Assembly: GCF_014698445.1 (NCBI RefSeq)
Contig: NZ_JACJSZ010000012.1
Location: 1 to 64,000, forward strand
Origin: Microcystis elabens FACHB-917
GTDB taxonomy: Bacteria > Cyanobacteriota > Cyanobacteriia > PCC-6307 > Cyanobiaceae
Direction: 5' to 3'
Length of the DNA: 64,000 nt
Shown here piece by piece: positions 58,193 through 64,000 of the stretch. The translations under genes were made by a program, and so were the position numbers. The notes beneath the pieces were generated by a model that made no database searches, was not told the origin of the DNA, and was given only the letters and a program-made list of their open reading frames with translations. The number at the start of each line of letters is the position of its first letter. Within the stretch, counting starts at the first letter, position 1.

Positions 58193-59311
58193 TCAGCCAG
58201 TGCCCGAGCCGGTGGGGCGATCGACCGGGCCGCGGTGGAGGTAGCCGCAGGGAATGGGGATTCCGCGGGCGATCTGCTGCTCGATCAGCTGGAAGTCAGC
58301 GTTCTGCACCAGCCGGGGCGACACGCCGAAATGGGCCAGGGCGCGGATCTGGGCGTTGGCGTCGGTGGTGTCGCCAAAGCGCTGCACCACCGCCAGGTAT
58401 TGGTCGTCGCCATTGGCGCCCTGGAGAGTGCCGGGCTTGATGGCCTCCAGCAACATGGCGCAGCTGGACGAGAAGCAGGTGCGATCGCGCTGGGCGAGCT
58501 GGGCTGAATCGCGCTGACTGAACCGGGGCACTCCCACCAGCGGGTTGGGGTGACTGCTCACCTGGCTGGGGCTCACCCGATCGGGTGATGGCGGGCTCCC
58601 CTGATCGGGTGAGGAGGGCGAGGCGCTCCAGAGAGCCCCTTCTGCCTTGCGGCGGCGCCGGAGGCCGGCTTCGCTGGGGCCGCCGGGGTTCACGTAGAGC
58701 ATCAAGGCGGCGGGCACCGCCTCCAGCTGGCCTGCTTTCAAGGCCTTGCTGAGGGTGTCGAACCTCTGGGCACCAAACCAGCGGGGGCCGCAGTTGTAGG
58801 TGAACGACAGCAGGGCCGCCTGACGGTTCACAGACAGCGCCTTGTAGATGGGGATGCAGTCGCGCAGCCGCCGCCAGTCGTCCTCAAGCCGGCTGCGCAG
58901 CAGGGCAACTCCTTCGGAGAAGGCTGCGCCTACGGCCTCCTCCTGGCTGATCTGGTCCCCCTCCTTGAACAGCCGCCCCTGCGAATCACGGGTGCTTCCC
59001 CAGCCGATCGTCCAGGGCTCTGCGCCGGTCTCGGGATCGGGGTAGGCCGTGAGCCGGCAGCCCTCGAACTCCTTCACCAGGGGAAGAGCAACAGCGACGG
59101 CAGCGGGGATGTCGGCCAGCGGAGCCGACCCACCTTCGGCGGCAGGAGCCTGGCGGGCAGTCCAGAGCCGCCGCAGGGTGCCGCCCTCCTCCAGGGCCTG
59201 GGGTTCATGGGTCACCAGCTGCTCGAGCACCGCCAGCAACCAGGCCAGGTGATGCGGGAGCTCTGGGTCGAAGTGCTCGACGTAGTCGCCGGCAGGAATA
59301 GGGCCACTCAT
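58193..59311 (-). CDS. Phage endolysin: GH24 lysozyme + C39-like peptidase (truncated by frameshift)
   Basis: 372 aa. GH24 domain about 75-230: KEFEGCRLTAYPDPETGAEP WTIGWGST has the catalytic Glu and the Y-x-D ... TIGxG pattern, then LSFTYNCGPRWFG. A Ser/Pro linker follows, then a peptidase-like domain LVGVPRFSQRDSAQLAQRDR TCFSSSCAMLLEAI (catalytic Cys) up to RPTGSGTG and a stop. The His motif continues in another frame. No signal peptide. The lysozyme part could still be active; it would cleave peptidoglycan. Confidence 0.88.
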   Translation of the reverse strand: MSGPIPAGDYVEHFDPELPHHLAWLLAVLEQLVTHEPQALEEGGTLRRLWTARQAPAAEGGSAPLADIPAAVAVALPLVKEFEGCRLTAYPDPETGAEPWTIGWGSTRDSQGRLFKEGDQISQEEAVGAAFSEGVALLRSRLEDDWRRLRDCIPIYKALSVNRQAALLSFTYNCGPRWFGAQRFDTLSKALKAGQLEAVPAALMLYVNPGGPSEAGLRRRRKAEGALWSASPSSPDQGSPPSPDRVSPSQVSSHPNPLVGVPRFSQRDSAQLAQRDRTCFSSSCAMLLEAIKPGTLQGANGDDQYLAVVQRFGDTTDANAQIRALAHFGVSPRLVQNADFQLIEQQIARGIPIPCGYLHRGPVDRPTGSGTG

Positions 59312-59553
59312 CGGAACACCCCCCGCCGGCCAGGCGCCAAGGCCGGCTGGGTCTTGGCGACTGCGGTCTGCATGCCGGAGGAGAAGAACAGGGCGAGAGC
59401 CGGGCTGCGCGACCGGCAGGCATTCACCTGGCGGGGCGCCTGGATCCAGTTCGGCAGCTCACAGGCGCCATCGAAGGCGGTCGAGAAGACGATCTGACCG
59501 GTGAGTAGGCCGTTTGACGCGGCCGCACCGAGCAGCCGCAGCAGGGGGGTCAT
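59308..59553 (-). CDS. Small hypothetical protein upstream of endolysin
   Basis: 81 aa from the ATG at 59553; its stop overlaps the endolysin ATG (ATGA). LLRLLGAAASNGLLTGQIVF, TAFDGACELPNWIQAPRQVN and ALALFFSSGMQTAVAKTQ. One weak hydrophobic part; not a clear holin. Coupled to the lysozyme. Confidence 0.5.
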   Translation of the reverse strand: MTPLLRLLGAAASNGLLTGQIVFSTAFDGACELPNWIQAPRQVNACRSRSPALALFFSSGMQTAVAKTQPALAPGRRGVFR

Positions 59554-59617
59554 GGAGCCAGAAGGTGGCGGGTCCTCTGGCTCTTGCCACACGCCTGGCA
59601 GGAATCCCGTGGGGGCC

Positions 59618-60247
59618 TCAGCCCGCCCCCACCAACTGCTGGCGCAGGGCGGCGAGGGCCTTTTCCTGAGCCCGCTGCACCGCCTTTGGGCTGATCTGCA
59701 ATTGCGCCGCGGCTGCTCGGAGCGAAAGCCCCTCGAGGACGGTGAGCCGCAGGGCCATGGCCTGGGCTGCGGGCAGCTGCTCCACCAGCCGCTCCAGCGC
59801 CGACCCGGTGAGGGAGGCCTCCAGCGTGGGCTCAGCGGCGGGAGCCGCCAGCTGCTCCAGCAGGGAGGACTCACCGGCGGCGGGAGCATCAAGGCTGGTG
59901 TGGCCGAGCGGCACGGTGCCATTCTCATGCTCGCGGCGGGAGATGCGCACCAGCCGCACCCGATCGCGCAGGTGGCGCTGCAGCGCCCCTGTGATGCAGC
60001 GGCGCAGATAGGGCGCCGCCTGCTCTCCGGCTCGGCAGCGGGGAGCGGAGCGCACCAGGGCTTCTCGGGCCACCTGGATCAGATCCTCCCGCTCCACCAG
60101 CGGGAACAGACGCCCTGCGGTGCGGGAGGCAATCGCATCGGCCAGCGGCAGGTGCTCCAGCACCAGGGCATCGCGGGCACGCAGGGCAGAACGGCTGAGA
60201 GCCGGGGGCTGCTGCTGGCGGCGGGGGGAGGAAGCGGGAGAAGCCAC
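59618..60247 (-). CDS. Sigma-70-like factor of the island
   Basis: 209 aa from a GTG. Region 2: LPLADAIASRTAGRLFPLVE REDLIQVAREALVRS and PYLRRCITGALQRHLRDRVR LVRISRRE. Region 4: LERLVEQLPAAQAMALRLTV LEGLSLRAAAAQLQISPKAV QRAQEKALAALRQQL. Smaller than group 2 sigma factors and with the short region 1-2 typical of phage/island sigma proteins. It may switch on late island genes such as the endolysin downstream of it. Confidence 0.82.
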   Translation of the reverse strand: MASPASSPRRQQQPPALSRSALRARDALVLEHLPLADAIASRTAGRLFPLVEREDLIQVAREALVRSAPRCRAGEQAAPYLRRCITGALQRHLRDRVRLVRISRREHENGTVPLGHTSLDAPAAGESSLLEQLAAPAAEPTLEASLTGSALERLVEQLPAAQAMALRLTVLEGLSLRAAAAQLQISPKAVQRAQEKALAALRQQLVGAG

Positions 60248-60404
60248 CTGAAGGACGGCGAAGAACCCCACCCCCACCGGCCGGCCGCAGCGCCGGGGCA
60301 AGGACGCCCGACATCGGAGGGCGCCTGGCCCGATCCTTGACGCGGCGTGAGGACCGGCCGAGGGATGCGGTGGGTGTGCGCCGGCCCGGTGGTGATTCGC
60401 CCCA

Positions 60405-60566
60405 ATGGCCCCGGTACGGTTGAAAGGTCGCAGCCCTCCGGTCCTGCCGGCATGGCCCGTGGTGAATGACCTGCTGACCCTGTGGGACTCGATCGCGGCC
60501 GAGCAGAACGGCCCTGAGTTCACCGACGCCGATGCCGCACTGGATGCCATCGAGCAGTCGCTGTGA
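60405..60566 (+). CDS. Small hypothetical protein
   Basis: 53 aa from the ATG at 60405: the last about 33 residues (NDLLTLWDSIAAEQNGPEFT DADAALDAIEQSL) look like an antitoxin-type acidic helix. No toxin partner follows directly. A GTG inside the frame is also possible as start. Confidence 0.4.
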   Translation: MAPVRLKGRSPPVLPAWPVVNDLLTLWDSIAAEQNGPEFTDADAALDAIEQSL

Positions 60567-60647
60567 GCAAGGTGCTGCGCCCCCTGCCAGTGACCGCTGG
60601 CTGACCCTGACAGAATGGAACGGGTCCACTGACCTGGAGCGGAACCG

Positions 60648-60863
60648 ATGACGCAAGCTCTGTCTGCAGCGGTGGCATCCGCAGCCAAGCTCCCGGAAGA
60701 GGAGCAGAACGTGCTGGCTGCGATCCTGCTCGAGGAAATGGAATCAGAAGAGCGCTGGAGCGCCCTGTTCGCTGGATCGCAGAACCTGCTGGAACAAATG
60801 GCCAGTGAAGCCATTCAAGAATTCCAGGCTGGCCGGGTGCAGCCCATCGATGAGCTGAAGTGA
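60648..60863 (+). CDS. RelB-like antitoxin
   Basis: 71 aa: AASAAKLPEEEQNVLAAILL-type helices, with EEMESEERWSALFAGSQNLL EQMASEAIQEFQAGRVQPID. This acidic two-helix pattern is a common cyanobacterial partner of RelE-like toxins. The stop overlaps the toxin start (GTGA). Confidence 0.8.
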   Translation: MTQALSAAVASAAKLPEEEQNVLAAILLEEMESEERWSALFAGSQNLLEQMASEAIQEFQAGRVQPIDELK

Positions 60864-61129
60864 ACTCAGTTACGACTGATCAGTTCAGACAGCTCTATAC
60901 CCAGGCGCCTCTCGAAAGGAGACGAAAGATCAGGCGCGCCTATCAACTGTGGCAAGAGAACCCGGCCCATCCATCCCTGAGATTCAAGAAGGTCCATACA
61001 ACGCTTCCGATCTACTCGGCCCATGTCGATCTCGACTGGCGGGCCGTCGGAGTGCTGAAGGACGGCACGTTGATCTGGTTCTGGGAGGGGTCGCACAAGG
61101 CCTATGAGGCCTTGCTGCGGACGCTCTGA
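60860..61129 (+). CDS. RelE/ParE-superfamily toxin
   Basis: 89 aa from a GTG that overlaps the antitoxin stop. LERRRKIRRAYQLWQENPAH PSLRFKKVHTTLPIYSAHVD LDWRAVGVLKDGTLIWFWEG SH: beta-strand core and basic helix of RelE-like mRNA interferases. Tight two-gene TA layout. Confidence 0.85.
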   Translation: MNSVTTDQFRQLYTQAPLERRRKIRRAYQLWQENPAHPSLRFKKVHTTLPIYSAHVDLDWRAVGVLKDGTLIWFWEGSHKAYEALLRTL

Positions 61130-61202
61130 CGAGCCCTGCGCGCCAGCCATCAACGGGTTCACGGCATCAAGCCGCTGCGGCCGAGGCGGCCGGCAGCGAC
61201 CG

Positions 61203-61923
61203 TTACCACTGCTCCAGCCGCAGCTCTGGCCGGCAGCGATCCTTCTCCAGCCACAGCACCGACAGCTCGGCGGGGGTGTAGCGGCGAAAGCCGGTGAGCA
61301 CGGCATAGAAGTCGCGCCGGGTGCTCCTCTCCCGCCAGGGCCATCAGGTCGTCCAGCGCAGCGGCCGCATCGAGCTGGTGCTCCTCGATCAGGGTCTGGA
61401 GCTGGCGGCGCCAGCGGCTGCTCAGGGCAGCGGCCTGCCGTGCACCGATCAGAGGAGCTGGTGTGGAGGCAAAGGCGGGTGGCACTGGCCGCAGGCCGCT
61501 GTAGCAGGCCCAGAACTCCAGCGGCCCCCAGACCGGCGCAGCGTCATCCCCGATCCGTCCCCAGTCACCGGAGGCGATGCGGCGGTTCAGCTCCCACAGC
61601 TGCCAGAAGGCCCGCTGCCGCAGCTCCCCGGCCTTGCCCTGCTCGATCACCGACAGGTTGCCGTAGGAGATGACGAGCGAGGGTTCACCGATCGCCTCGG
61701 CCCAGCTGCAGGCGGTGTACTGGGTCCAGCCGTTGCGGCGCCGCCAGTTCAGCAGCATCCGCCCGAAGACTCCCCGGCTCTCCTCCTGCTGCTGGATCAA
61801 CACCTCATAGGCGGGGATGGCCGGAAGCGGCAGCCGGTTGGGGTGCTGGGGGCTGGTCGCACCGTGATGTGCGCTTGGCAGCGCAGTGCTGCTGGGCGTG
61901 GATGGAAGTTGCGTTGCAGGCAT
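61203..61923 (-). pseudogene. Island HTH-like family, copy B, frameshifted
   Basis: From the ATG at 61923: ESRGVFGRMLLNWRRRNGWTQYTACSWA, YGNLSVIEQGKAGELRQRAF WQLWELNRRI, FWACYSGLRPVPPAF. After ALDDLMALAGE (near 61325) copy A's ending appears in another frame: RRDFYAVLTGFRRYTPAELS VLWLEKD, stop TAA at 61203. One base lost or gained. Clear paralogue of 38015-38767. Confidence 0.8.
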
Positions 61924-62036
61924 GGGGCTCGCCGCTGATGGCGGTGGATGGCACCTGCTCTTGCCAGGCAGCCCAAGCCCCATCCACGGCAGGCAGGAGC
62001 AAGCCGGAGGCAAAGAAGCCTCCGGCACCCGGGGGC

Positions 62037-62274
62037 TCAGAGCACCCGCACCTCGGCCTGGGGACCAAGTACCCGCTGCTGATTGGCAGCCAGGATCAGG
62101 GCTTGCTCGCGGGGCACGTAGTGCGGCTCAGCGGAGATGTGCCCACTGGCTTCGAAGAAGCCTGGCGGCTTGGTGATCGAGGAAGAGCACCCGCAGCAGC
62201 TGGCCGGCGGCATCAAGCAGATGCACCGAGATGATGCGGATCGGGCAGGAGCGGCTGAGGGGAGTGGGGGCCAT
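62037..62274 (-). pseudogene. Small hypothetical gene with a frameshift
   Basis: From the ATG at 62274: RIISVHLLDAAGQLLRVLFL DHQ; then in the next frame KPPGFFEASGHISAEPHYVP REQALILAANQQRVLGPQAE VRVL and stop. The parts join near 62165-62170. Together about 78 residues of a beta-rich protein I do not recognise. Confidence 0.5.
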
Positions 62275-62450
62275 GGCTGGGCTGGCGAACGACACCGCCG
62301 TTCAGCCCCGGCGCAGCCAGCGCCGCGCAAGGGTCGCGGAGCGACTCGCGTCAGCCCTTGCGCGGTGCGCAAGCCGGGGCAGGCCGGGTGGCGTGATCGC
62401 CAGCCCCAGACGCGTCGACCAGTTCCGCTAAGCCCTCTCCGCGAAAGGCA

Positions 62451-63053
62451 TCAACCAGCCGTTTCCTGGCGGACGACCCCCGAAAAGCCCATCGCCACCG
62501 GCGGCTGATAGGGCCTGAGCTGGTGAGCCGTGGCCTCCAGGAAGGCCACCAGGATCGTGATCAGCAGGATGTAGTCCCGCAGGGCGGGCTCCAGGGGGCC
62601 GTGGGCCGTGGGTGGCTGGGCAGCCAGCACCGTCTCCAGGGGAGCCCAGAGGGGGTTGGTGCGGGCCACGGAGTAAATCTCGGCCAGACGGGCGCTGTGG
62701 GCAGGATCAGCCAGCGATGCCGATTCAGCGGAATGCGCGAAGGCATTGCGAAGCTTGCGCAGAGCAGAGAGAGCCCGCTCCACCGGGGCGTCGATCAGGC
62801 CCAGACGGCGAGCGAGGGCGACCTTGGCACCGAGGGAACCCAGGGGCCGATCCGGCAGAAACAGGCCATCACCTCGGCTGGCTGCCGGGGCCATCAGGGC
62901 CTGAAGCAGATGCTCAAGGGCGGCATCGACCCGGGCCACACCCACCAACACCGCGCCCCGGCCGCGCTCCTGGAGCATCTGCAGGGCGATGGTGCGGGCT
63001 GCAGCAACAGCGGGGCCTTCCGGGCTGTGGGGCGAGCCTGTTGCCATTGACAT
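62451..63053 (-). CDS. MltR-like / HEPN-type helical protein
   Basis: 200 aa from the ATG at 63053. AAARTIALQMLQERGRGAVL VGVARVDAALEHLLQALM, PLGSLGAKVALARRLGLID and ALRKLRNAFAHSAES. This is the MltR fold (mannitol operon repressor group, helical) and contains RNAFAH, an R-x4-H motif as in HEPN RNases. It lies 12 bp after a UvrD-like helicase gene, so is probably co-expressed with it. Function could be regulatory or part of a defence pair; inference. Confidence 0.65.
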   Translation of the reverse strand: MSMATGSPHSPEGPAVAAARTIALQMLQERGRGAVLVGVARVDAALEHLLQALMAPAASRGDGLFLPDRPLGSLGAKVALARRLGLIDAPVERALSALRKLRNAFAHSAESASLADPAHSARLAEIYSVARTNPLWAPLETVLAAQPPTAHGPLEPALRDYILLITILVAFLEATAHQLRPYQPPVAMGFSGVVRQETAG

Positions 63054-63065
63054 GTGGCGGTTGGG

Positions 63066-64000
63066 TCAGCTGCGACTGATGAAAGGTGACGCCTTGCCGC
63101 TGTAGCTCACCACCACCCGTTTCTTGGCCCGCGTGGCGGCCACATGCAGCAGCGAGCGCTCCTGCTGCTCGAACAGCTCGCGGGAGAGGGCATCGGGCCG
63201 TTTATTGAGCTCCACCTGCAGCGGCATCTGGGAGGCATCCAGGGCAGGCAGGAAGACCTGATCGAACTCCAGCCCTTTGACGCGGTGCATGGTGGCAAGC
63301 CGCAGCGCTGGATCGCTGGGATCGTCGGATTCCTCGGGCTTGATCACCCGGGTGGCGAACCCCTCGCCCTTGAGCAGGGCTTCAAGCTTCTCCACGGCCT
63401 TGTTGGTCCGGGCCGCCACGCAGGTGGAGGCCAGCGACTGCTGCTCGTCGCGCAGTTGACGCAAGGTGCTCACCAGGAAACGCTGCTCCTCTCCGGGGTC
63501 CTCAAAGCCCTGCACCAGGGGTTGGTCGCCGTGAAGCAGGGAGCGGGTATCGCTGGCGGGATCACTGCCACCATCGAGATCGTCGAAATCGAGGCCGTGG
63601 AGCACGGCGGTGGCCCAGGCGCGGGTTTCCTCGGTGGTGCGGTAGTTGATGCGCAGCTTGCGGGCGCGGCCGCGGATGTCGATGCCGCAGCGGCTGAGCA
63701 CCAGCGGCTTGCCGTAGATGCGCTGGTGGGGATCGCCGACGATGAACAGATCATTGGCGCGGGGCTCGCCCACCAGGGCGCGCAACAGCGAGAAGGATGC
63801 GACATCAAGATCCTGGGCCTCATCCACCACCACGGCGGCGTACAGCGGTGGTTGTTTGGCCTTATGGATCAGGTCGGCAGCGATCTGCTTGGCTTCCTCC
63901 AGCTCCCATAGCCCCCGCTGACGGAATTCAGCCCGCACCGCATCAAACACCGGCCAGATCTGGGCGCGCTGCGGGCGGCTGAGGCGGGTGCCGCGTCCGA
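63066..64000 (-). CDS. UvrD/Rep-type superfamily 1 helicase (partial, 5' end outside window)
   Basis: The frame is open to the window edge; 311 residues seen. Walker B YAAVVVDEAQDLD, then LFIVGDPHQRIYG (motif III), LRINYRTTEETRAWA (motif IV), ATMHRVKGLEFDQVFLPAL (motif V) and LLHVAATRAKKRVVVSYSG (motif VI). Motif I is outside. No helicase-accessory C-terminal domain follows. It could be a repair helicase or the motor of a phage-defence system. Confidence 0.88.
   Translation of the reverse strand, partial: GRGTRLSRPQRAQIWPVFDAVRAEFRQRGLWELEEAKQIAADLIHKAKQPPLYAAVVVDEAQDLDVASFSLLRALVGEPRANDLFIVGDPHQRIYGKPLVLSRCGIDIRGRARKLRINYRTTEETRAWATAVLHGLDFDDLDGGSDPASDTRSLLHGDQPLVQGFEDPGEEQRFLVSTLRQLRDEQQSLASTCVAARTNKAVEKLEALLKGEGFATRVIKPEESDDPSDPALRLATMHRVKGLEFDQVFLPALDASQMPLQVELNKRPDALSRELFEQQERSLLHVAATRAKKRVVVSYSGKASPFISRS

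Follow-up and report, generated by a model that had tools for sequence, protein, structure and literature searches.

Close relatives of a small gene near the right edge of a 64,000-nucleotide stretch of Microcystis elabens FACHB-917 DNA (the window; bases 1-64000 of a 75,695-bp contig, the remainder of which was used to extend the gene reading) stand last in several unlike anti-virus operons of related cyanobacteria, a pattern suggestive of a second-line weapon that is optional and can be swapped. The operons are of six kinds, namely ARMADA-type, Type III-type, Type I, McrBC, RecQ-DprA, and DISARM. The small protein is most likely a metal-independent RNase, and the explanation we favor, to which we give an even chance of being right, is that it is a HEPN RNase, both optional and exchangeable, which restriction operons carry at their end as a second line of defence. 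Restriction systems have mostly been studied as closed units; one selected, often in-place-deleted gene ending many unlike systems would point to modular second-line immunity and, if this is true, the MtlR fold would gain a defence branch.

Table 1. Coordinates of the genes and motifs under study, and of gene sets seen at other loci.
Feature	Sequence	Coordinates	Strand	Basis or remark
Small MtlR-fold HEPN protein gene, 200 aa	window	62451..63053	-	ORF; last gene of the operon
RNAFAH, residues 102-107 (HEPN R-x4-H motif)	window	62733..62750	-	read from translation
UvrD-type helicase, C-terminal 310 aa	window	63066..64000	-	ORF; gene continues past the window edge
DEAQD of the helicase	window	63810..63824	-	read from translation
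Genes for a 77-aa protein (broken), a sigma-70-like protein and a phage-lysozyme domain protein	window	58193-62372	-	follow the small gene
BPTD_3080-type enzyme, Type III-type methylase, Pfam HEPN gene, RelE-UvrD, small gene	L009 (same genome, contig C64)	10892-19915		small gene overlaps RelE-UvrD by 4 bp
RecQ-family helicase, then DprA-like gene, then small HEPN gene	L039	6419-9934		same set at L032, L041 and L045
HEPN gene between or near McrB and McrC	L030	5499-6020		
HEPN gene between or near McrB and McrC	L054	7393-7912		beside a short nucleotidyltransferase-like gene (named by eye)
HEPN gene between or near McrB and McrC	L046	3885-4497		beside a short nucleotidyltransferase-like gene (named by eye)
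Conserved operon with DUF6079 protein of 1215 aa	L052	3164-9009		points away from small gene; also L047, L050
47% identical copy of the small gene, Sideroxydans MAG	L063	10001-10585		behind a ubiE-like gene (named by eye)

The small gene and the helicase gene (Table 1) are co-directional and 12 bp apart by ORF reading, as the initial annotation had described, and the R-x4-H motif that it had noted in a small helical protein is present; its family label "MltR" should read MtlR, and a HEPN fold for the small protein is supported by the structure comparisons below. The helicase DEAQD is presumably a motif of Walker B type. Contig C64 of the same genome carries another, diverged copy of the pair, and this, together with the R-N-x-x-A-H residues kept in 40 of 40 aligned homologues, places the arrangement beyond chance. 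Beyond the window edge, and upstream in transcription order, are drmC (270 aa), drmB (637 aa), and drmA (1206 aa), with NCBIfam scores of 168, 533, and 1125 bits against cut-offs of 133 (DISARM_DrmC_I), 240 (DrmB_fam), and 950 (DISARM_DrmAS), respectively. Given these genes, the pair is the 3' end of a DISARM operon, in keeping with the defence context that had been proposed for it. Past drmA comes a divergently oriented gene that matches Pfam AbiEi_2, and of a DISARM-type methylase (the drmMI slot) the C-terminal third is present, ending about 300 bp before the contig does; the match to DISARM class I is in drmA, drmB, and drmC, and the contig stops short of where drmD could be expected. Neither the small gene nor a helicase at least 60% identical to that of the window occurs in any of the 29 DrmA-hit regions of other genomes (L106-L130 and L132-L135, several of which stop at contig edges), and on these regions the idea that DISARM routinely carries this pair was rejected. 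With its truncated methylase and a truncated RelE part in the helicase, the window operon may be decaying. The genome also holds a second, decayed DISARM locus (L131, contig C52), in which drmA, drmB, and drmC are broken into pieces and a methylase is represented by its C-terminus.

The helicase frame remains open to contig position 65540, with homology to relatives ending at 65189, and it matches the Pfam models UvrD_C (E 3.7e-21) and UvrD-helicase (E 1.2e-19) above their cut-offs. The initial annotation had looked to the N-terminus beyond the window, for example for a nuclease domain, to decide whether the two genes are a defence pair. In intact relatives, an N-terminal domain of nuclease type, modelled at pLDDT 88.1, finds RelE-type toxins as its top PDB matches (YafQ, Z 10.9; RelE1, 10.8; ribosome-bound RelE, 9.9), and the Pfam HigB-like toxin model matches 6 of 11 helicase family members at E<=1 (best 2e-4). 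The window copy is truncated here: it aligns with intact relatives from about residue 38, so that some 37 residues of the RelE part are gone from its 5' end, and with them the opening strand of the fold and two of its helices. The remainder is an open frame, 87% identical to the L023 protein. The truncated RelE part abuts unrelated DNA behind drmC, and the stretch of roughly 300 bp that separates this remnant from drmC gave, among the loci compared, a single weak 50-bp match, to L045. The DISARM-helicase junction is a one-off in our sample, through recombination or misassembly. A housekeeping UvrD, Rep, or PcrA protein, the plain reading that the annotation had set against its own, was rejected, since the best score is 73 bits against equivalog cut-offs of 911 to 1168 and the relatives have the RelE-fold N-terminus. 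Gabija was likewise rejected, with no GajA match in the six C24 proteins scanned and drmC and the small gene as the helicase's neighbors; GajB models match only through UvrD.

An AlphaFold2 model of the small protein, built with 40 homologues, reached pLDDT 87.8 and pTM 0.82, and in this model the protein has the MtlR/HEPN fold. Its closest structural matches are Vibrio MtlR (Z 14.4, 143 residues aligned, rmsd 3.1), E. coli MtlR (Z 14.1, 141 residues, rmsd 2.3), YggD (Z 13.5), and HepS of prophage Gifsy-1, solved both alone (Z 12.0) and in complex with the tail tip protein J of phage lambda (Z 11.2), ahead of further HEPN structures at Z 6 to 8.5 (2hsb, 8.5; sacsin, 7.8; HepT, 7.5); helical models reach high Z values easily, and the top five exceed the rest and cover most of the domain. 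Foldseek alone also gave MtlR as its best match (E 1.7e-3), and a sequence profile search of the PDB with the small protein returned chance-like matches only. DUF4145 (PF13643) is the sole Pfam family matched: the window copy scores 20.1 bits against a curated cut-off of 23.1, falling below it, and all eight relatives match at E<=1 (best 8e-6), while none of the eight members matches the Pfam MtlR model at that threshold. The R-N-x-x-A-H residues are also kept in seven of seven distant cyanobacterial homologues that were aligned. Selection on the gene is purifying, with a median dN/dS of 0.30 over 724 pairs and a value of 0.17 between the window copy and its nearest relative on the tree, L030.

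MtlR regulates the mannitol operon, and the MtlR fold is best known from a sugar-operon repressor. The small protein could accordingly be an MtlR-like regulator, acting through contact with RNA or with a protein partner to adjust expression of the operon that it ends; we regard this as rather unlikely. MtlR is the best fold match, E. coli mtlR also ends its operon with a start overlapping the mtlD stop, and an exchangeable tail slot would suit a self-contained regulator. However, the motif that the small-gene family keeps without exception is eroded in the solved relatives, E. coli MtlR keeping only the R and H and solved Vibrio MtlR and YggD neither, and a regulator would require a common target in unlike operons. 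The small gene also differs from MtlR and YggD in its operons, which are of the restriction and not the sugar type.

Matches to the small gene were found in 8 of 339 genomes of the phylum, with eight near-full-length copies in five genomes and three more that are short or broken. The 49 loci found by scanning named genomes comprised 48 from cyanobacteria (Cyanobium/Synechococcus/Vulcanococcus-type among them) and one from Sideroxydans; with the window, L009, and L022-L026, 56 loci were examined. At 29 of these, the small gene starts no more than 40 bp from the end of a restriction-type gene or overlaps its stop, the overlap often being 4 bp. That gene is HsdR at ten loci, RelE-UvrD at eleven (six in Type III-type operons, four in ARMADA-type operons, and the window DISARM), McrC at five (one a fragment), and a DprA-like gene after a RecQ-family helicase at three. 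Partner identities come from scores over NCBIfam cut-offs for McrC and the RecQ family, and from Pfam for HsdM, HsdS, HSDR_N, and DprA; the BPTD_3080-type restriction enzyme scores 1192 bits against 800. L055 and L070, whose contigs start inside the helicase, were called Type III-type from helicase similarity alone, and "ARMADA-type" denotes a large DEAD/MZB helicase before RelE-UvrD, ArmA and ArmB forming no part of the criterion. At 11 further loci either the upstream partner is farther off or separated by other genes, or the small gene itself is cut short or stands at a contig end (L022, L026, L040, L043, L045, L054, L057, L060, L064, L073, and L074). Five have a PglX-type methylase or RNA ligase upstream (L028, L029, L035, L037, and L042), three a DUF6079-type operon directed away from the small gene (L047, L050, and L052), and eight no partner or no information (L027, L031, L033, L051, L053, L063, L068, and L072).

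Several of these loci merit separate mention (Table 1). The RecQ-DprA-small HEPN set is perhaps an undescribed defence operon; the tail of its RecQ-family helicase (L039 type) weakly matches ribose-phosphate pyrophosphokinase models. Around the Sideroxydans copy no restriction gene was recognised nearby, and the neighbors resemble housekeeping genes. A plasmid search for the small protein gave one 29% match, in Shewanella, behind parA/parB. Carriage as phage cargo is unsupported, one scan of viral contigs having confirmed no relative.

Viewed from the partner side, in a survey of 151 genomes of the family (some of whose loci are on the same contigs as the named-genome loci), the gene is far from obligatory. 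Behind ARMADA-type RelE-UvrD genes of at least 76% identity, it follows directly in the window, L175, and L178, and at about 0.4 kb in L176; L177 is the L022 locus, where it stands behind an McrC fragment, and no small gene was seen in the flank examined at L180-L183, L184/L189, and L185. It is present at all four Type III-like helicase loci (truncated at one) and at three of five McrC loci. Two of the HsdR loci listed have it, a fragment of it remains at L199, L193 retains only its first codons behind an intact HsdR, and no small gene was found at the remaining HsdR loci listed. In-place truncation beside an intact partner, seen at L075/L186 and L193, fits a costly effector. No such gene is annotated behind the operon-ending RelE-UvrD genes on plasmids of Pseudomonas, Gemmobacter, Thermus, E. 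coli, Pseudanabaena, and Cylindrospermopsis, for which plasmid annotation is incomplete. The small gene is optional, bound to one lineage, and repeatedly gained and lost.

These distributions bear upon the proposal of the initial annotation, that RelE-UvrD and the HEPN gene form a dedicated two-gene defence pair. MtlR homologues do stand beside such helicases at other loci, a finding on which the annotation had made its proposal depend, and the two genes recur together with both ARMADA-type and Type III-type neighbors, without exception at the Type III-like helicase loci. Yet McrC, HsdR, and DprA-like genes carry the small gene equally tightly, many RelE-UvrD genes are without it, and the RelE part in the window is truncated, so that a dedicated pair is very improbable.

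A tree of the 40 homologues in alignment A2 was used to follow partner exchange; fragments, contig-end cuts, and some full copies stood outside the alignment (L027, L029, L031, L033, L035, L046, L051, L053, L054, L068, L070-L075, the duplicate L021, and L171-L173). The tree contains a Type I clade (seven rows), a Type III-type clade (five), a second Type I pair (two), and a mixed clade of 20 rows whose partners alternate among McrBC, ARMADA-type, RecQ-DprA, Type I, and the window DISARM, several of its inner branches being weakly supported; the Sideroxydans branch is very long (2.48). Eleven partner changes are required over the 33 rows labelled, with PglX-type, orphan, divergent, and Sideroxydans rows excluded and the window row counted as ARMADA. 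The gene order at L061 (ARMADA-type genes, McrBC, small gene), repeated at L022 with a McrC fragment in the place of McrBC, looks like successive exchange. In the window the small gene is followed by island genes that reappear, with their order unchanged and an ArdC antirestriction gene added, on another contig of the genome (L136, contig C35) and after many copies of the small gene elsewhere; they are a repeated genetic element.

Such a setting would also suit a passenger or anchor, a permanent component of an island cargo site in this cyanobacterial group, with cargo systems swapped upstream of it by recombination and the tight spacing inherited rather than selected for joint function with the partner. 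This explanation has real support in that the same flanking genes (for the 77-aa protein, ArdC, and the sigma-like and lysozyme-like proteins) lie downstream of the small gene whether its partner is of the DISARM, Type III, Type I, McrBC, or DprA type, and the partner changes on the tree, the orphan copies (L031, L033, L042, and L063), and the fusion of the window helicase mid-gene to foreign DNA agree with it. Against this, the main Type I clade keeps its partner and has none of these flanking genes in the sequence examined, overlaps of 4 or 11 bp recur across three unrelated partner types, and the strong motif conservation requires a function of the gene's own; on balance we consider the passenger explanation rather unlikely.

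An RNase that is optional and acts after restriction or alongside it would fit the invariant motif, the HepS-like fold, the linkage with restriction genes, and the in-place loss. This explanation builds on observations: the order of the genes, the fold and unbroken motif of the protein, purifying selection, linkage that recurs behind different partners, and loss in place. The linked system (here DISARM drmABC with the RelE-UvrD helicase) would first attack foreign DNA, while the HEPN protein, putatively co-transcribed and translated from the mRNA of its partner, would be kept silent by the partner's complex or by self-assembly. Should the partner be inhibited or overwhelmed, a presumed trigger, the HEPN protein would be released and its predicted RNase activity would cut RNA, perhaps tRNA, whereupon the cell would halt. 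It is difficult to envisage a silencing contact specific to each partner when a single family goes with such different ones; the trigger would have to be common to them, or else one of the other two explanations, regulator or passenger, is correct. Weighing against an RNase effector, the partners work, or at least persist, without the small gene, shared island genes lie behind several partners as they would for a passenger, MtlR-fold proteins are also known as regulators, and the window operon may be in decay. A broader form of the proposal, tentative and rather unlikely at present, is that this HEPN RNase subfamily senses a shared consequence of restriction, such as broken or persisting foreign DNA, and not one partner protein, and could hence be appended by recombination to any of the six operon kinds as a general add-on giving two-tier defence.

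Parts of this arrangement have known counterparts. HepS (PDB 9oij and 9oik) is a HEPN protein of similar fold, tied to phage through its co-structure with the lambda J tail tip according to the PDB title; it is, however, a prophage gene and was not seen in this survey behind restriction genes. The helicase resembles ArmD of ARMADA Type II, described as a RelE-like N-terminus with a GajB-like UvrD helicase (PMC12458937), both in the RelE-like domain fused to UvrD in its relatives and in their position after a large DEAD/MZB helicase, as ArmD follows ArmC. In the window, by contrast, the helicase follows DISARM drmC, and drmABC stands upstream in place of the ArmA-ArmB-ArmC-ArmD operon order. 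According to the portions of that 2025 preprint available to us, ARMADA Type II comprises four genes, without a HEPN gene among them, and needs all four together with the Walker A lysine of ArmD (PMC12458937). PrrC with PrrI provides the precedent of a proposed RNase second line behind restriction, although PrrC has its own ABC ATPase domain whereas the small protein is a bare HEPN domain. The nearest published account, as far as the available parts of the paper go, is that of HEPN genes in R-M and McrBC operons, with a DUF4145-like clade that includes MtlR, which were proposed to act like PrrC with PrrI (Anantharaman et al., 2013; PMC3710099); the available text has no mention of ARMADA, DISARM, or partner exchange. 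The open-access literature searched yielded no account of an MtlR-fold HEPN gene common to several restriction systems. HEPN genes in R-M and McrBC operons, and ArmD, are thus already known, while the portability of one subfamily across six operon kinds was not found in that literature. The small protein shares with the published set the HEPN fold with R-x4-6-H, an operon with restriction genes, and DUF4145 as its only Pfam family, and differs from it in that one closely related stand-alone subfamily ends six operon kinds, with tree evidence of partner exchange.
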